Shown piece after piece: positions 2,714 through 20,397 of a stretch of 33,190 nucleotides of DNA. The notes below the pieces were generated by a model. It had not been told where the DNA came from. It saw only the letters and a program-made list of their open reading frames with translations, and searched no databases. A program made the position numbers and the translations under genes. Within the stretch, counting starts at the first letter, position 1. Each line of letters starts with the position of its first letter. The DNA comes from a virus, in IMG/VR virus record IMGVR_UViG_3300045534_000060, positions 1 to 33,190 of that record; one strand, 5' to 3'.

Positions 2714-3034
2714 ATGCGTGTCTGTGAACAGAAGATGATTGGCAAGTTGCGCAACATGGAGTCTGGTAACTGCGGTGGAAACACTAAGGTTATCGTGGTG
2801 GATGGCGAGGCTGTCGTGTATCTGCATGGCCATGCCATTGCACGGTATGCACCGCAGGATAAGTTGCTTGGTATCTCCAGTCGTAATTGGGAAACAAGCA
2901 CTACCAAGTCTCGACTGAATGCAATCCTGCGAACCTTTGGTCTGGTGGGTATCCATCAGCATAAGTTCGTGTGGTATCGTGGCAATGAGCGTTTCATGTC
3001 ACCCGAGTGGATTAACCTTCAGGAGAATCTTTGA
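2714..3034 (+). CDS. Conserved phage hypothetical protein, 106 aa
   Basis: Contains the sequence pattern seen in a recurrent small phage family: an N-G/C-G-G-N-T-x-V start, a short L-H-G-x-x-I-A segment, a central W-x-T-x-T-x-x-R-L-N-x-I-L helix and a G-x-x-Q/H-x-x-F-V-W-Y C-terminal strand. Function of the family is unknown to me. ATG 2714 has AAGGAG (2701-2706). The stop overlaps the next start as TGATG. Confidence 0.7.
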   Translation: MRVCEQKMIGKLRNMESGNCGGNTKVIVVDGEAVVYLHGHAIARYAPQDKLLGISSRNWETSTTKSRLNAILRTFGLVGIHQHKFVWYRGNERFMSPEWINLQENL

Positions 3035-3432
3035 TGCTTAGCGCACTGCTTGTGTGTGGCGTGATGTGTGTTCCTCCGTCTGATTCTACCGATGTAGATG
3101 GAATCCTTCGCGCAATCTCAAAGGTTGAGTCCAATCATAAGGATGATGCCATCGGTGATGGTGGCAAGGCTATCGGCAGGTATCAGATCCACAAGGTATA
3201 CTGGCAGGATGCTGTGCAGTTCGATCCATCTATCGGTGGAAAGTATGAGGACTGCAAGGATTCCGAGTATGCTAGGAAGATAGTGGTTGCATACCTCTCT
3301 AGGTATGCACCAGACTGGGATATCGACACGGTGTCTGGTATCCACAATGGTGGACCGAAGGGTCACAAGAAGTCTGCGACAAAGGTGTATCGTCGCAAGG
3401 TAAAGCAGGCATTTGAATCCAACAAGGAGTAA
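3034..3432 (+). CDS. Lysozyme-like (SLT-type) putative transglycosylase, 132 aa
   Basis: After a hydrophobic N-terminus (residues 2-13, with cysteines 8 and 12) the protein has the lysozyme-fold signature: A-I-S-K-V-E-S-N with candidate catalytic Glu32, then A-I-G-x-Y-Q-I-type AIGRYQI (46-52) and a C-terminal H-N-G-G segment. This matches transglycosylase SLT-like domains that cut peptidoglycan glycan strands. The N-terminal stretch could be a weak signal or signal-anchor, although it lacks a basic n-region. ATG 3034 is preferred over TTG 3031 for spacing from AGGAGAA (3021-3027). An early-region position is unusual for a lysis gene, so an exclusion or entry role is possible. Confidence 0.75.
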   Translation: MLSALLVCGVMCVPPSDSTDVDGILRAISKVESNHKDDAIGDGGKAIGRYQIHKVYWQDAVQFDPSIGGKYEDCKDSEYARKIVVAYLSRYAPDWDIDTVSGIHNGGPKGHKKSATKVYRRKVKQAFESNKE

Positions 3433-6444: not shown

Positions 6445-6915
6445 ATGATTGACAATGATAGCATCGTTAAGTTCATGCGTGAGTTTGTCCTTGATACCGT
6501 CAAGGATACCAAGTATTCCGTTGAGGATTGCGTTGAGAACTACTTCATCAATGGAAACTTCAGCCTTTATGACCACATTGATTCGTGGGATATTCGAGAT
6601 GCAGTCCGATCCTACATGAATGACAACATGCATGAGATTGTACATATTGATGGGTGGGATATTCGAGATGCAGTCCGATCCTACATGGATGATAACATGC
6701 ATGAGATTGTACATGACGAGATGTCTGGACAGCGTATTGAGGAAATGGTCAGCGAGTATCTTGGCAATAGCACTGCTGTTCAGGATGCAATTGACAACTA
6801 TGATGATGTAGAGAAGTTCCTTCAGTCCCCTGTTGGACGTGAGTATCTTGCGGATGTCATTCTTACCGTGGTGTTTCCAAAGATCAGCGAGGTAATGAAT
6901 GCAGACAAAAAGTAA
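6445..6915 (+). CDS. Acidic protein with internal 23-residue duplication, 156 aa
   Basis: AAGGAG upstream of ATG 6445. Residues 45-67 and 68-90 are near-identical 23-residue units (core WDIRDAVRSYM and DNMHEIVH) encoded by a 69-bp tandem repeat. A looser C-terminal echo (EEMVSEYLGNS, VQDAIDNYDDV) suggests an originally helical-repeat protein. No known domain. The near-perfect nucleotide repeat points to very recent expansion. Confidence 0.7.
   Translation: MIDNDSIVKFMREFVLDTVKDTKYSVEDCVENYFINGNFSLYDHIDSWDIRDAVRSYMNDNMHEIVHIDGWDIRDAVRSYMDDNMHEIVHDEMSGQRIEEMVSEYLGNSTAVQDAIDNYDDVEKFLQSPVGREYLADVILTVVFPKISEVMNADKK
6577..6714 (+). repeat. Two tandem 69-bp direct repeats within a gene
   Basis: Units 6577-6645 and 6646-6714 differ at only four positions (TCG/GGG, AAT/GAT, GAC/GAT) and preserve the reading frame as 23 codons each. 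Confidence 0.9.
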
Positions 6916-13236: not shown

Positions 13237-13241
13237 TATCT

Positions 13242-13332
13242 GGGCGTTTAGCATCTGGGTATGCAATCCTGCTTATAACAGGACTTAGTGGCCGATTACC
13301 GCGAGAGGTGGGTTCGATTCCCTCAACGCCTA
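13242..13332 (+). tRNA. tRNA with anticodon UAU (AUA) and long variable arm
   Basis: Acceptor GGGCGTT pairs with AACGCCT (13325-13331; G-U first pair), A73. D-arm GCA/TGC with GGG in the loop; anticodon stem TCCTG/CAGGA around C-T-TAT-A-A (13272-13278). A long variable arm has stem 13288-13291/13299-13302; T-arm loop TTCGATT with one U-U mismatch. The anticodon reads AUA Ile, but the long variable arm is the hallmark of Leu/Ser/Tyr tRNAs. Two bases rather than one separate the D and anticodon stems. No encoded CCA. Isotype is therefore uncertain. Confidence 0.75.
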
Positions 13333-13336
13333 TTAT

Positions 13337-13409
13337 GCCAAGGTAGACCAACGGCAGAGTCATCGCTCTCAAAATGCGATCAGTGTGGGTTCGACTCCCA
13401 TCCTTGGTA
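13337..13409 (+). tRNA. tRNA-Leu(CAA)-like, short variable loop
   Basis: Acceptor GCCAAGG/CCTTGGT with A73; D-stem GAC/GTC with GG in the loop. Anticodon stem 13363-13367/13375-13379 has a T-T mismatch closing the loop C-T-CAA-A-A. Variable loop is only five bases. T-arm GTGGG-TTCGACT-CCCAT. The anticodon CAA reads UUG (Leu), yet bacterial tRNA-Leu has a long variable arm. A shifted reading of the mismatched loop could make the anticodon UCA, so isotype needs care. Confidence 0.7.
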
Positions 13410-13413
13410 CTGC

Positions 13414-13486
13414 GGTTCCGTAACTCAATTGGTAGAGTAGCGGACTTTTAATCCGTTAGTTATGGGTTCAAGTCCCATCGGAACCA
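13414..13486 (+). tRNA. tRNA-Lys(UUU), CCA encoded
   Basis: Clean cloverleaf: acceptor GGTTCCG/CGGAACC, standard D-arm with GG, anticodon stem GCGGA/TCCGT around C-T-TTT-A-A, T-arm ATGGG-TTCAAGT-CCCAT, A73. The DNA continues with CCA at 13487-13489, so the 3' end is genome-encoded. Reads AAA/AAG. Confidence 0.95.
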
Positions 13487-13491
13487 CCATT

Positions 13492-13565
13492 ATACCTGTA
13501 GCTCAGATGGATAGAGCAACAGCCTTCTAAGCTGTTGGTCGGTGGTTCGAGTCCACCCAGGTATG
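13492..13565 (+). tRNA. tRNA-Arg(UCU)
   Basis: Acceptor ATACCTG/CAGGTAT (7 perfect pairs), G73, D-arm with GG, anticodon stem ACAGC/GCTGT around C-T-TCT-A-A, T-arm GGTGG-TTCGAGT-CCACC. Reads AGA/AGG, which are the dominant Arg codons of the right half of the window. Confidence 0.95.
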
Positions 13566-13581
13566 TTAAAGGAGATAACAC

Positions 13582-13822: not shown

Positions 13823-14017
13823 ATGATGAAACCAGGATATCAGACAACGGAATTCTGGACAGCCGTGGCACCAATCGTTGGTAGCCTAACTGTCAAGGAT
13901 GGACAGAATCAAGATCTATTGATCCTCTGTGGTGCAGGTCTAGCTGCGCTATATATCGTATCTAGAACCGTAGTAAAGTACAAGGAAGCAAACAAGAATG
14001 AAGCTGTGGAACGGTAG
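13823..14017 (+). CDS. Small membrane protein, holin-like candidate, 64 aa
   Basis: ATG 13823 with AAAGGA. N-terminal K-P-G-Y-Q-T-T-E-F-W leads to a moderately hydrophobic segment (residues 12-23), then a strong TM segment (about 32-48, LLILCGAGLAALYIVS) and a charged Lys/Glu-rich tail. This layout occurs in phage inner-membrane proteins sometimes annotated as holins. Overlaps thyX by 20 bases, far from the lysozyme-like gene, so a lysis role is uncertain. Confidence 0.6.
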   Translation: MMKPGYQTTEFWTAVAPIVGSLTVKDGQNQDLLILCGAGLAALYIVSRTVVKYKEANKNEAVER

Positions 14018-15012: not shown

Positions 15013-15191
15013 GACGTGTTACTGTTAACATGATTGATCTAAAGCAGCAGCTTGAGCTTGTCGATATTGCAAGCGACTATGCCCAGGAAGACGATGCAAA
15101 ACTTCTACATGATCTTGGAACGCTGCTAGACAAGATCATAGGCGGTGAGATTGTGCTGTTCTATAAGGATACGAATGGAACTACAGAGTGA
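15009..15191 (+). CDS. Hypothetical protein, 60 aa
   Basis: ATG 15009 on an ATGA overlap. Helical protein with heptad-like leucines (LKQQLELVDIASDYAQEDDAKLLHDLGTLLDKII) and a short strand. Overlaps the primase-helicase by 17 bases. No family recognised; possible small accessory to the replisome. Confidence 0.55.
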   Translation: MRRVTVNMIDLKQQLELVDIASDYAQEDDAKLLHDLGTLLDKIIGGEIVLFYKDTNGTTE

Positions 15192-16908
15192 AAGCGTTGT
15201 TGTCAGGAGAGAGCGTTGTCCTGCTTGTGCATCTAATGGATCTGATAGAAGCGGCGACAACCTTGCTGTTTATTCTGACGATCATGTGCACTGCTTCAAG
15301 TGCGGATACCACAAGGGAGGTAACGGAAAGATGAGCGAGACTGTTGTAAGCAAGATGACCAATTCATTGAATGGGTCGTATTCGGATCTTCCACACAGGA
15401 GAATCGATGAGAAGACATGTCGGCAGTATGGATATCAGGTTGCCAATGTAAACGGCAAGGATGTCGAGATTGCAAACTACTACGATGCATCTGACAATCT
15501 TGTTGCACAGCATGTTCGAGGACCAGACAAGCAGTTTGCTTGGAAGGGTTCTCCAAAATCAGTCCAGCTGTTTGGTCAGAATCTATGGAAGGTTGGCGGC
15601 AAGCGTCTTGTAATCACAGAGGGAGAGATCGATTGCATGACGGTATGCCAGCTTCTTGGTGGTACATGGCCTGTCGTATCCATTCCCAATGGAGCGCAGT
15701 CAGCTGTACGTTCAATCAAGGATAACCTTGAGTTCGTGTCTTCGTATCAGGAGATCGTCCTATGCTTTGACATGGATGACGCTGGTCAGGATGCGGCAAA
15801 GGCTGTCAGCGAGATCCTTCCACCTGGCAAGTGCAAGATAGCCAAGCTTCCAATGAAGGATGCCAACGATTGCCTTGTTTCCAACAACGGCAAGGCTGTG
15901 GTCTCCTCAATATGGGAGGCACAGGTCTATAGCCCAGACGAGATCCTGCACGTATCTAGCGTAGCGGAGACAACAGATATCGTTGCAAGCAAGGTATATC
16001 CGTTTCCGTTCGACAGGCTATCGGAGTTCCTTATCGGACAGCGATCTGGAGAGATCAGTCTATGGGCTTCTGGCACAGGTTCAGGCAAGTCTACCATCTT
16101 GCGTGAACTTATGCACCACCACCTTGAGGAGAACAGGTCTGTCGGTGCAATCATGCTTGAGGAATCACCACAAGAGACGATGGATGACATGATCTCCCTG
16201 ATGATTAACAAGCCAGTCAGGGCTATTCGTGCAGCTCAGATGATGAATGAGCTGCGTGTAAAGATGGGCAAGCATCCCATTGACATCGAGTTTGTCAACG
16301 AGTTCAGCGACGATGAGTATGCCGAGGCAAAGAGAAAGCTGTGCGCTACAAGCCTGTATATCTACGACCATCTTGGAAACAACGCAATGCAGAATCTGCT
16401 TGCGCGTATGGAGTACATGGCTGTCAGTCTCAAGGTAGACGTAATCATACTGGATCACATCACTGCTGCAGCGGCAGGTCTTGTTGGTCTTGGTGACAAA
16501 GATATAGAGGGTGGAAACAGCGAGAGAATCATCATCGATACCTTGATGAAGGAACTTCGTTCACTTGCCGTTCGCACTGGTGTTCACATCGACATCGTGT
16601 CTCAGCTGAAGAAGACTGACAAGGCATACGAGGAGGGGGATCGCATCACACTGCAGGATCTACGTGGATCTGGTGCGCTTGCTTCTGTACCCAACACAGT
16701 CATTGCCCTTGAGCGTGACAGACAGAATCAGGATGCAGTGATTGCCAATACAACCATCGTTCGTGTTCTCAAGAACAGATTGACTGGACGTGCTGGCGTA
16801 GCCACCGCATTGTACTACGACCGTGGTACTGGTAGGCTTAGGGAAGTCGATGTCGCATTCAATGACGAAGGCTTTCCAGTTCTAAACCCACAGGAGATTA
16901 AGCAATGA
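15175..16908 (+). CDS. T7 gp4-type DNA primase-helicase
   Basis: 577 aa (T7 gp4 566). Primes and unwinds at the fork as a ring. Zinc-binding domain with Cys15-x-x-Cys18 and Cys40-x-x-Cys43; TOPRIM motifs VITEGEIDCMTV and VLCFDMDDAGQDAA; helicase Walker A G300-T-G-S-G-K305-S-T, an EES acidic motif, Walker B VDVIILDHIT, a VSQLKK motif and RGSGALASVPNTVIALERD. ATG 15175 with AAGGA (15165-15169) is chosen; the longer frame is inside the previous gene. Confidence 0.96.
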   Translation: MELQSESVVVRRERCPACASNGSDRSGDNLAVYSDDHVHCFKCGYHKGGNGKMSETVVSKMTNSLNGSYSDLPHRRIDEKTCRQYGYQVANVNGKDVEIANYYDASDNLVAQHVRGPDKQFAWKGSPKSVQLFGQNLWKVGGKRLVITEGEIDCMTVCQLLGGTWPVVSIPNGAQSAVRSIKDNLEFVSSYQEIVLCFDMDDAGQDAAKAVSEILPPGKCKIAKLPMKDANDCLVSNNGKAVVSSIWEAQVYSPDEILHVSSVAETTDIVASKVYPFPFDRLSEFLIGQRSGEISLWASGTGSGKSTILRELMHHHLEENRSVGAIMLEESPQETMDDMISLMINKPVRAIRAAQMMNELRVKMGKHPIDIEFVNEFSDDEYAEAKRKLCATSLYIYDHLGNNAMQNLLARMEYMAVSLKVDVIILDHITAAAAGLVGLGDKDIEGGNSERIIIDTLMKELRSLAVRTGVHIDIVSQLKKTDKAYEEGDRITLQDLRGSGALASVPNTVIALERDRQNQDAVIANTTIVRVLKNRLTGRAGVATALYYDRGTGRLREVDVAFNDEGFPVLNPQEIKQ

Positions 16909-17216
16909 TTATCGACATGGTGTTTTGTGCTCTAGCGATTGCATCTATTTGCCTATGGTTTTTCCATCAACGAATGATTGAAAAACACATTAGCAACCTT
17001 GAAAAAAAGATAGACAATTTGTCCAATGAGATGGATAGGTTTGAGTCAAGGTTGTTTACAATCGAAAGTAAGGTGTATGATTGCAAGGCTAAGGTGACAA
17101 TGCTTGAGACTGATCTTGGCAATGTCATCAAGACAGAGCAAAGAAAGTCAATGCATAAGACATATACCGAACTGGCTGCAAGATACAAGAAGCTTGCAAA
17201 GGAATATGCTAAGTAA
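16905..17216 (+). CDS. Membrane-anchored coiled-coil protein, 103 aa
   Basis: ATGA overlap with the helicase; AGGAG (16892-16896). N-terminal TM segment (about 2-20, MVFCALAIASICLWFF) then a long coiled coil (about 28-90, with ISNLEKKIDNLSNEMDRF heptads) and a basic tail. Topology resembles an inner-membrane spanin (Rz-like) or a signal-anchored structural protein, but it lacks a recognised partner o-spanin. First of three envelope-directed or small genes inserted before the DNA polymerase. Confidence 0.65.
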   Translation: MIIDMVFCALAIASICLWFFHQRMIEKHISNLEKKIDNLSNEMDRFESRLFTIESKVYDCKAKVTMLETDLGNVIKTEQRKSMHKTYTELAARYKKLAKEYAK

Positions 17217-17466
17217 CCTAGAGCAGTTCTGCCTGATGAGGGCAGCAGCGTGGGACATGTATGCAAGCGCAGCCTTGAGCATGTCCCTTCACCCAGGTAC
17301 TAGCAAGCACGAAACCGTAAAAAGAACAGCGGATGAAGTTGCTCAGATTGCAGATCAACTTCTTGCCGAGAGAGACAGGAGATTTCTATTCTATGTTGAA
17401 GATTCTAAACCTACTTGCGACACTTGTGATTGCCGCAAACGCAGCAGCTCAGGTTCCACCAGATAA
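17206..17466 (+). CDS. Hypothetical protein, 86 aa
   Basis: ATG 17206, 11-base overlap with the coiled-coil gene, AAAGG close upstream. Alanine-rich helical N-terminal half (MRAAAWDMYASAALSMS, a VKRTADEVAQIADQLLAERDRR helix), then a Cys-rich tail with C-x-x-C-x-C and basic RKRSSSG. The tail overlaps the signal peptide of the next gene by 74 bases in another frame. Function unknown. Confidence 0.6.
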   Translation: MLSNLEQFCLMRAAAWDMYASAALSMSLHPGTSKHETVKRTADEVAQIADQLLAERDRRFLFYVEDSKPTCDTCDCRKRSSSGSTR

Positions 17467-18673
17467 GATTGTCCAGCCAGATGGCACGATTCAGCTTGTG
17501 CCTAAGCCACCAGCACGTGTACTTACCCCATACTACATCGACCCAACGATGCAGTTTCAGATCTACATGGATTGCCAGTGGGCTAATAGATCATGGAGCG
17601 GTTCCAATAAGAACGGTCTGATTGCATATAAGGATGAGGTAGTCACGGCTGATGTCTTGGCTATGCCGATTCCAAAGACAAAGGTTGTCAATGGAAAGAC
17701 AGTTCAGATGTTCAGTGTATACAGATCATCCGATGTTGTCATCCAATACGATAGCACTAGGCTTGAGCTTATGCCTGTTGTGCCAGCTGCCTTTGGTCCA
17801 GCCTTTGATCCAAAGGTAATGGACGCTTCAAAGGTTACGCAAACCCAGCTTGCAGACGGTGTTCTTCTGTTTCATTCAGAGGCACTCAAGGCACCTGAAC
17901 TACGTACTCCAGCTTTGGCACCGCTGTACTATCAGTGGAATTTCGGAGGATATCTTTGGTCTGGTGGATATCGTCTGCTTGGAAAGATCCAGTTCAAGGT
18001 AAAGGATGATTACTATCTTCCTTCATGGGGACAGCAACGATCCTTCATTCGAGTTCTTGACAAGCATAACGATGCTGTTACACGTGTTGATGGTAGTCCT
18101 GTCGATGGAACAAACATCCTGAAGGAGATCAGAAGCCAAGGTGAACAGATCATGTTTGGTGTTCCACCTGCCTACAAGGTTTCACACTACCTATCCGCTG
18201 CAACCACCAAGTTCAATGTCGGAGACACAGTTAAGGTAAGCATCATGGTAAAGCCAGATTCAAAGCCACAGTTGCTTTCGTCTGTAGCCACCAACTTTGC
18301 ATGGGATCCAACGATCCTTGAGTTTACTGGACTGGATAAGACGGGTTCTCCACCCAGCATGGACAACTCAATGTACATGCCTGGACCTGGAAACATAAAC
18401 GAATCTTCCATTCCAAAGGATGGAAATGCATGTCATGTCTGGCTGTCTCAGCTTGGTGATCGTCGTTTCTACGACAAGGAAACACTGATTGTAACGCTTA
18501 ACTTCAAGGTGTTGTCAGCCTTCGCAACGACAAATGTAGACATCCTAAGCAAGAACGACCCAAGACTTGTTGGAATCAGCGTACTTGATGATTCAATGCC
18601 TATTGGAAGCAGCAAGCCAGGATCCACCGTACTTGGATCACAGCGTGGCATTACAATATACGGAACAAACTAA
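17393..18673 (+). CDS. Secreted protein with cohesin-like beta-sandwich domains, 426 aa
   Basis: ATG 17393 yields a classic signal peptide: Lys3, hydrophobic core to residue 15, and A17-A-A19 before Gln20. A frame extension to 17333 would bury it. The mature protein has two regions with cohesin-like patterns: V-V-I-Q-Y-D-S-T-R-L-E-L-M ... LGKIQFKVK (about 110-215) and GDTVKVSIMVKP ... F-A-W-D-P-T-I-L-E-F-T-G-L ... L-I-V-T-L-N-F-K-V (about 273-400). Such sandwiches bind dockerins, surface sugars or proteins. It lies between helicase and polymerase genes, not in the virion block. Could be a periplasmic or surface-targeted host modifier; function not proved. Confidence 0.65.
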   Translation: MLKILNLLATLVIAANAAAQVPPDKIVQPDGTIQLVPKPPARVLTPYYIDPTMQFQIYMDCQWANRSWSGSNKNGLIAYKDEVVTADVLAMPIPKTKVVNGKTVQMFSVYRSSDVVIQYDSTRLELMPVVPAAFGPAFDPKVMDASKVTQTQLADGVLLFHSEALKAPELRTPALAPLYYQWNFGGYLWSGGYRLLGKIQFKVKDDYYLPSWGQQRSFIRVLDKHNDAVTRVDGSPVDGTNILKEIRSQGEQIMFGVPPAYKVSHYLSAATTKFNVGDTVKVSIMVKPDSKPQLLSSVATNFAWDPTILEFTGLDKTGSPPSMDNSMYMPGPGNINESSIPKDGNACHVWLSQLGDRRFYDKETLIVTLNFKVLSAFATTNVDILSKNDPRLVGISVLDDSMPIGSSKPGSTVLGSQRGITIYGTN

Positions 18674-18681
18674 GGAGAAGC

Positions 18682-20397
18682 ATGAAGCTTATTATCGATA
18701 TCGAATCTGATTCATTGATGGAGTTGACGTTGGATAGCAAGGGAAACCCAGTCAAGGAATGCTCACGAATACACTGTGTCGTGACCAAGGATATCGATTC
18801 AGTCAACCAAGCCATCAACGTATGGACTGGAGACTCACTTGGTAAGCCGCTTCTGGACTACCTAGCTAAGGCTGAGTTGCTGATAGGTCACAACCTATAT
18901 GGGTTTGACCTTGAGTGTCTGCGCCGAATGCTTGGTTTCAAGGACAAGAAGAAGATCCACGATTCCCTTGTAGTAAGCAAGCTCATGTATCCAGATCTTA
19001 AGAACCACCCACTTGGTGGCAATTCACTGGAATGCTGGGGCAAGTTTCTTGGAAATGAGAAGATCAACTACACTGGAACGTGGAAAGAACTTACAGACGA
19101 TATGATAACCTACTGCATACAGGATGTCAATGTGGCTCATGACATATACCTGCATCAGATGGAATGGATCAAGCAGAACAAGTACGAGAAGATCGTGCAG
19201 CTTGAGCACATGGCTTCGGAGATCATATCCCAGCAGCAATCAAACGGATTCAACTTCGATATGAATGCTGCAGTAAAGCTTCAACGGGATCTTCTGTTGT
19301 TCAAGGCACAGGTTGAGGACGAGATGCGTGTTGTCTTTCCAGACAAGATCCATATCAGGTTCTCTGAAAAGACAGGCAAGAGACTGAAGGACAAGGTCGA
19401 GGTATTCAATCCTGGATCTAGAAAGCAGATTGCCGAACGGCTGTATGAGAAGTATGGATGGGTTGCACCAGAGACAGACAATGGAAATCCAAACGTAGAT
19501 GCATCTGTGCTTGAGGAACTAGATTATCCAGAGGCAAAGAAGCTTGTGGAATACTTCGATGTAATCAAGCTGATGGGTCAGGTAGAAGACTGGGTTGCAC
19601 GTGCATCTCATAGCAGGGACAGCAAGGTTCATGGCTTTGTGAATGTACAGGGAGCATCGACTGGTCGCTGCACCCATAGCCAGCCGAATCTTGCACAGGT
19701 ATCAAGCGATCACCGTGCACGTGAGCTGTGGATTCCAGACAAGGGAGATGTGTTGCTTGGCTCAGACCTAAGCGGTCTAGAGCTACGAATGCTTGCCCAT
19801 TACATGCATGAGTACGATGGTGGTGCATATGCAAACGTCATTCTCAATGGCGACATTCACCAACACAACATGGAGAAGGCTGGTCTGGCTACGAGAAACA
19901 ATGCAAAGACCTTCATCTATGGCTTCCTATATGGAGCAGGAGATGCCAAGGTAGGCAAGATCGTTGGTGGATCAGCCAAGCAGGGATCTGCATTGAAGGA
20001 TAGGTTCCTTCGTGAGTTGCCAGCATTGGCAAAGGTAAAGCAATCGGTTGAGTTTCAGGTAGCAAAGAACAACACCGTGATGCTTGTCGATGGCAGGAAT
20101 GCTCCTGTACGTAGCAAGCATGCCGCACTGAACACCCTGTTGCAGGGAAGCGGTGCCGTTGTCAGCAAGTATTGGATGATACTTGCCAACATGAACCTAG
20201 CACGTCAGTTCGGATCAAAGGTCAAGCAAGTTGCGTATGTGCATGACGAACTTCAATTCTCCTGCCCCGCTGACATTGCCGACAAAGCTGGACAGGTAAT
20301 CACTGATTCGGCAATAGAAGCAGGTAAGCGACTTGGAATCAAGATGCCAATCAATGCCGAGTACAAGATCGGTAGAAACTGGGCAGAGACCCACTAA
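18682..20397 (+). CDS. Family A DNA polymerase (T7 gp5 type)
   Basis: 571 aa versus 704 in T7, so shorter, especially in the region that could hold a thioredoxin-binding insertion. N-terminal 3'-5' exonuclease: D-I-E-S (6-9), GHNLYGFD, and YCIQD-x-N-V-A-H-D. Polymerase motif A LLGSDLSGLELRMLAHYM, motif B RNNAKTFIYGFLYGAGDAKVG with the Tyr equivalent to T7 Tyr526, motif C VHDE at 520-523. AAGGAG precedes ATG 18682. Replicates the genome with the primase-helicase and SSB. Confidence 0.97.
   Translation: MKLIIDIESDSLMELTLDSKGNPVKECSRIHCVVTKDIDSVNQAINVWTGDSLGKPLLDYLAKAELLIGHNLYGFDLECLRRMLGFKDKKKIHDSLVVSKLMYPDLKNHPLGGNSLECWGKFLGNEKINYTGTWKELTDDMITYCIQDVNVAHDIYLHQMEWIKQNKYEKIVQLEHMASEIISQQQSNGFNFDMNAAVKLQRDLLLFKAQVEDEMRVVFPDKIHIRFSEKTGKRLKDKVEVFNPGSRKQIAERLYEKYGWVAPETDNGNPNVDASVLEELDYPEAKKLVEYFDVIKLMGQVEDWVARASHSRDSKVHGFVNVQGASTGRCTHSQPNLAQVSSDHRARELWIPDKGDVLLGSDLSGLELRMLAHYMHEYDGGAYANVILNGDIHQHNMEKAGLATRNNAKTFIYGFLYGAGDAKVGKIVGGSAKQGSALKDRFLRELPALAKVKQSVEFQVAKNNTVMLVDGRNAPVRSKHAALNTLLQGSGAVVSKYWMILANMNLARQFGSKVKQVAYVHDELQFSCPADIADKAGQVITDSAIEAGKRLGIKMPINAEYKIGRNWAETH

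Follow-up and report, generated by a model that had tools for sequence, protein, structure and literature searches.

A mobile phage gene for a predicted exported protein with two cohesin domains, and its possible role as a docking adaptor

The window analysed here (the whole stretch of 33,190 bases) is an IMG/VR virus record from a T7-like phage. Its T7-like genes encoded a phage RNA polymerase, a T7-type primase-helicase, a family A DNA polymerase (PolA) and a 5'-3' exonuclease; further genes specified a dUTPase, ThyX, ribonucleotide reductase (RNR), head-tail connector, scaffold, capsid and tail tube. Between a small conserved ORF and polA, a junction hereafter called the slot, lay a gene for a protein composed of a predicted signal peptide (SP) and two cohesin domains. 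The features of this region were the following:

15145 to 16908, plus strand: T7-type primase-helicase, upstream of the slot
17236 to 17466, plus strand: small conserved ORF (AWDMYASAALSMS...LLAERDRR), left side of the slot, its 3' end overlapping the cohesin gene
17377 to 17382, plus strand: AGGAGA, a likely ribosome-binding site separated from the ATG by 10 nt, read directly from the sequence and similar to the GGAG/AGGA before most relatives
17393 to 18673, plus strand: SP-cohesin-cohesin gene, 426 aa plus stop, delimited by ORF, Pfam, AlphaFold2 model and structure comparison
17393 to 17449, plus strand: predicted Sec signal peptide of 19 aa with cleavage before Gln20 (called by pattern alone; Gln20 does not vary in alignments A2 and A4)
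17540 to 18166, plus strand: N-terminal cohesin-fold domain, residues 50-258, divergent, by AlphaFold2 model, top PDB matches and profile match to the C-terminal domain
18170 to 18670, plus strand: C-terminal cohesin domain, residues 260-426, by Pfam and structure comparison
18682 to 20397, plus strand: family A DNA polymerase (polA), right side of the slot (Pfam DNA_pol_A, E 2.3e-48)

The reading frame extended from the ATG at 17393 to the stop codon at 18671-18673. An alternative in-frame ATG was present at 17333; the start at 17393 was favoured because of the homologues and of the AGGAGA preceding it.

The Pfam Cohesin model (PF00963) matched residues 271-385 with 27.7 bits, above the curated cut-off of 24.1, and was also matched in 14 of the 17 aligned relatives (E<=0.1). 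The full-length AlphaFold2 model, built from a 14-sequence alignment, displayed a pLDDT of 76.4, and its residues 260-426 were superposed on cohesin 2vo8 with a Z score of 14.5 (rmsd 2.4 A, 133 of 135 residues). The N-terminal domain had no Pfam match of its own; folded alone, it reached a pLDDT of 88.6 and a pTM of 0.85, and its model resembled 2vo8 (Z 12.4, rmsd 2.7 A, 135 residues), cohesins ranking first in the PDB. By sequence and predicted fold, the protein carries a cohesin domain, and its N-terminal domain is, according to the model, a divergent cohesin copy. The two domains probably arose by tandem duplication, since their profiles matched each other (probability 91.8, E 7e-7). Two cohesin-type beta-sandwich regions in a 'cohesin-like' protein had been announced by the first-pass annotation, which named structure prediction and comparison with cohesins as a check; cohesins were indeed the top matches for both domain models, and the PF00963 score raised the designation to cohesin domain. 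Integrin matches in Foldseek were generic beta-sandwich rows and were not taken as identity. A phmmer search of the protein against PDB sequences returned nothing, and PHROGs and NCBIfam, from which the family is absent, gave no useful match.

The protein began with a signal-peptide-like leader, MLKILNLLATLVIAANAAA followed by Q after the cleavage point (a pattern call). A basic and hydrophobic leader stopping before a Gln was encountered in 20/20 twin-cohesin records, of which L013 and L041 are truncated at a contig end (L numbers denote viral records); the leader sequences differed while their make-up was kept. Sec-type export of the window protein is thereby supported as a prediction, and at that level so are the strong signal peptide and secretion claimed earlier. 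Whether signal peptides are swapped together with the backbone was also considered; identities between the short leaders were hardly above those of shuffles, and no claim is made.

The small ORF and polA were directly joined in L016-L018 and nearly so in L019, so that the slot was empty there, and no cohesin match was found anywhere in these records. A location between helicase and DNA polymerase genes had been noted before and was confirmed here. The gene had also been taken as part of a replication module, a link that appeared incidental because other phages carry the gene elsewhere and close relatives lack it at the slot. Directly after the helicase gene, positions 16905-17216 (plus strand) encoded a protein of 103 aa that combines a hydrophobic segment near its N-terminus with a coiled coil.

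SP-cohesin-cohesin proteins were found in 20 distinct viral records (the window and 19 others), all metagenomic and mostly fragments, representing at least eight dissimilar phage backbones. The relatives in the 19 other records, full-length or interrupted by a contig end, showed 34-68% identity. Carriers were distributed as follows:

T7-like phages: L014 (a relative of the window) and L009 (another T7-like phage)
A terminase-defined phage type: L001 and L004, with the gene at different positions
DnaB-primase-RNR phages: L002, L007, L008, L010, L011, L013, L034, L035, L036 and L041
Others: L005 (75 kb), L006 (65 kb), L037 (174 kb), L012 and L033

These groups had almost no other genes in common. 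When backbones were mapped on the twin-cohesin protein tree, 10 label changes were counted, against a mean of 9.8 after shuffling. The window protein clustered with those of L001 and L002; the PolA of L014 was 85% identical to that of the window, yet its twin cohesin grouped with that of L037. Within the gene, DNA of L005, L006 and L009 was 83-93% identical, whereas the flanks were devoid of detectable similarity. In L001 the gene filled the ERCC4-TerL junction, which was shorter than 300 bp in 31 of 47 relatives; other wider gaps at this junction (535-1222 bp) belonged mostly to distant relatives, from which no cohesin match was obtained. Every pair of relatives compared displayed a dN/dS of 0.06-0.17, which argues against a chance ORF. 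Judging from these comparisons, the twin-cohesin gene is a mobile, selected and accessory gene, mobility being indicated by a tree that ignores the backbone and by DNA identity that stops at the gene edges.

Cohesin-dockerin proteins are bacterial and archaeal, and this would suit a host gene that was picked up and serves no function in the phage. Such an origin is very improbable: purifying selection largely refutes a functionless passenger, and the gene is widely spread. Two pattern-based scans of GTDB genomes revealed no relative, close bacterial ones included, as far as such scans reach, for they confirm only sequences with the chosen peptide patterns and distant host relatives may escape them. 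Neither isolate phages (50,697 phage records) nor plasmids contained a relative of the window protein in tblastn searches. Matches of Pseudomonas phages to the divergent L037 member (tblastn, E ~0.07) were taken as chance.

A second form, named Coh-Doc here, was detected at 37 loci. These proteins of ~214-265 aa were composed of one cohesin and a C-terminal dockerin with two calcium-loop repeats, mostly preceded by a signal peptide; the dockerin scored above the Pfam cut-off in 25 of the 27 records checked. Coh-Doc and twin-cohesin forms occupied the same slots. Some adjoined genes for SNase and tubulin, others separated the small ORF from polA (L015, L139, L140 and L153), and others again had portal and capsid genes on either side (L143-L147, L151 and L152; compare L009). 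Export is not universal in this wider family, since a minority of Coh-Doc versions lacked the signal peptide, namely those of the polA slot (L015, L139, L140, L153) and L151 and L152.

The copies between portal and capsid, the absence of a leader in L151 and L152, and the position of the L009 gene after the portal gene and among tail-fibre-like genes would agree with a virion or tail-associated adhesion protein, comparable to the promiscuous Ig-like domains of phages. This function is improbable for the family at large, as the signal peptide pattern was displayed by all twin-cohesin and most Coh-Doc versions, most copies were located outside structural modules, and the slot was empty in close relatives. 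The window gene itself is stand-alone and provided with a leader, unlike an Ig-like decoration or tail domain.

Genes of the envelope type recurred next to cohesin genes. One encoded an exported protein resembling an outer-membrane barrel and ending in Phe (L007:6054-6827, L034:5700-6443, L136:4879-5634 and others), another an exported protein whose tail read, for instance, APTPGAIALLGMAGLMGRRRR, and a third a 65-aa holin-like protein, holin-like neighbours being present in six records. Proteins with the PEP-CTERM-like tail (PTPGAIALLG..GRRRR) were found just before cohesin genes, likewise in six viral records (L010:7218-7898, L127:5181-5891, L128:2828-3493, L132:3202-3876, L134:4953-5627 and L135:4971-5645). 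We take tails of the APTPGAIALLGMAGLMGRRRR type to resemble the PEP-CTERM sorting signals of Planctomycetota. For freshwater Planctomycetes, cohesin-dockerin complexes that include peptidases and lie outside the cell have been proposed (PMC6461901), and these complexes together with the tails make Planctomycetota-like hosts plausible by analogy. The C32 family was rejected as a general partner; in three records it lay a short distance downstream of the cohesin gene, and the others lacked it.

Predicted export, an accessory status, occurrence in unrelated phages and the barrel-like and other exported neighbours are all compatible with a masking of the cell surface, by which the twin cohesin would bind a dockerin-bearing or other receptor protein and prevent superinfection or keep debris from capturing the progeny. 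A parallel is provided by porins that some phages encode and that shut out others, such as Lc of phage PA-2. Known exclusion proteins are, however, mostly small membrane proteins or lipoproteins, and masking alone leaves Coh-Doc and dockerin-protease genes unexplained; we regard it as possible and on the unlikely side.

Such dockerin genes were encountered twice. In L037, the only positive among the twin-cohesin records examined for dockerins, a 365-aa protein (L037:6527-7624, plus strand) with a C-terminal dockerin (31.6 bits) was encoded two genes upstream of the twin cohesin; despite its GDSGS motif it was not matched by trypsin models and is not called a protease. In L135, a 102-kb record with a terminase, a subtilisin-like S8 protease with a leader (L135:10726-12177, minus strand; 144 bits, subtilisin E-value 1.7e-38) was located ~4 kb from the Coh-Doc gene and ended in two C-terminal dockerin-like repeats, which at 15.6 bits remained below the Pfam cut-off. 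Neither a dockerin nor an S8 protease was found in the window, whose dockerin partner would be provided by the host or encoded in missing sequence.

The two dockerin genes, together with the dockerin peptidases of the proposed planctomycete complexes (PMC6461901) and the holin-like neighbours, could be explained by a recruitment of enzymes, the phage building or hijacking an extracellular complex by which protein would be degraded as a source of nutrients, or a proteinaceous envelope or matrix loosened ahead of release. Partners of this kind were restricted to two phage records, one of them not confirmed as a protease, and the window is without S8 protease; this explanation is doubtful, slightly more so than masking.

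What these observations point to, at the sequence level, is protein-protein docking as the primary activity, rather than polymer binding. The first-pass annotation had offered binding of a host-surface polymer, a block of superinfection or the tethering of host cells as roles that the protein might have. We propose, with about an even chance of being right, that the mobile gene encodes an exported two-headed cohesin adaptor that links the phage to an extracellular network of cohesins and dockerins belonging to its host. During infection, the host Sec pathway would export the product of this accessory ('moron') gene. In the periplasm or at the surface of the cell, the two cohesins of this product would bind proteins that bear dockerins, and the phage would thereby be connected to that network. 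In sister phages an adaptor with one cohesin and one dockerin would take its place at these positions, and a few phages would themselves encode proteins tagged with a dockerin, among them an exported protease. Least certain is the purpose: the adaptor may mask or cross-link the infected surface against further adsorption, or gather proteases for nutrients or for loosening of the envelope.

A docking adaptor was favoured because Coh-Doc versions share the slots and because phages encode dockerin proteins. It is further supported by a cohesin assignment from both sequence and predicted fold, by a leader pattern that is kept while its sequence drifts, by a gene tree independent of the backbone, by the empty slots of relatives, and by the envelope-type genes (barrel-like, PEP-CTERM-like and holin-like) among the frequent neighbours. 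Against it counts that cohesin folds also occur without dockerin partners. The scarcity of dockerins among twin-cohesin records (L037 alone, with none in the window), the leaderless minority of Coh-Doc versions, the dockerin score of the L135 protease below the cut-off and the missing trypsin match of the L037 protein weigh on the same side. The adaptor is compatible with both masking and enzyme recruitment, which are not mutually exclusive. More tentatively, and with chances somewhat short of even, phages as a group may encode an exported cohesin-dockerin kit of twin-cohesin scaffolds, Coh-Doc adaptors and dockerin-tagged proteases, which would build or rewire complexes on infected cells and be swapped as a cassette among unrelated phages sharing hosts.

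Several known systems share part of these characteristics. Non-cellulosomal cohesins from Clostridium perfringens GH33/GH84C (2vo8, 2jh2, 2w1n) and Archaeoglobus (2xdh) have the same predicted fold (Z ~10-14) and, similarly, are not tied to cellulose; the phage protein differs from them by being stand-alone, with two cohesins and predicted export, at ~10-15% identity. Two tandem cohesins are likewise present in the type II cohesin dyad of ScaA (3l8q) and in cellulosomal scaffoldins. Pfam detected Cohesin alone in the window protein, with no carbohydrate-binding, X or SLH module beside it, which ruled out a cellulosomal scaffoldin; nor is there a link to cellulose. The 'planctosome' of Nemodlikiaceae (PMC6461901) combines a signal peptide, a cohesin and a dockerin on one adaptor with dockerin-tagged peptidases; it is bacterial and large (its anchor comprises 2,210 aa), whereas phage versions are short and mobile. 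Like superinfection-exclusion morons, the twin-cohesin gene is accessory and horizontally exchanged, with a product exported according to prediction. To our knowledge, none of the known exclusion morons is a cohesin.

Phages of this type were said at the outset not to be known to export such a protein. This agreed with the 50,697 phage records without a match and with the literature searched (partial coverage), in which no phage cohesin or cohesin-dockerin pair was described. Few known protein locks are as tight as cohesin-dockerin pairs, which have been studied mainly in bacterial cellulosomes. If phages deploy such pairs outside the infected cell, this would be a new viral way of altering the host surface before lysis, and it would offer a handle on the role of non-cellulosomal cohesin-dockerin systems in uncultured bacteria. 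The spread of the gene suggests that phages tap or copy protein-docking systems on the exterior of their host cells.

Additional genes were recorded in the window and around cohesin genes. At 3031-3432 (plus strand) the window encoded a lysozyme of the destabilase type, which scored 40.3 bits against a cut-off of 26.2. Its N-terminus was hydrophobic, and it is likely to be exported and to serve in lysis; a counterpart with a leader, 44% identical to it, was present in L037 (174 kb). The window also encoded a 64-aa holin-like membrane protein (13823-14017, plus strand). Small genes immediately precede the cohesin genes of L037 and L033, and the 64-aa protein shared ~51% identity with the one in L037 and ~43% with the one in L033. 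Tandem 69-nt copies (n=2, 93% identical) were located at 6574-6711 (plus strand) within a 156-aa ORF; a search for T7-type promoters in repeats gave nothing usable. A run of four tRNA genes (Ile-TAT, Leu-CAA, Lys-TTT and Arg-TCT) occupied 13241-13566 (plus strand). A conserved protein of 464-570 aa with no Pfam match was encoded just behind the cohesin gene, with little or nothing in between, in three records (L005:9319-10713, L010:9343-11055 and L011:9152-10558). Finally, a Tubulin/FtsZ-family protein (43.5 bits; L002:9297-10487, plus strand, and relatives) adjoined the cohesin gene in phages of the DnaB-RNR type and was found at 18 loci.
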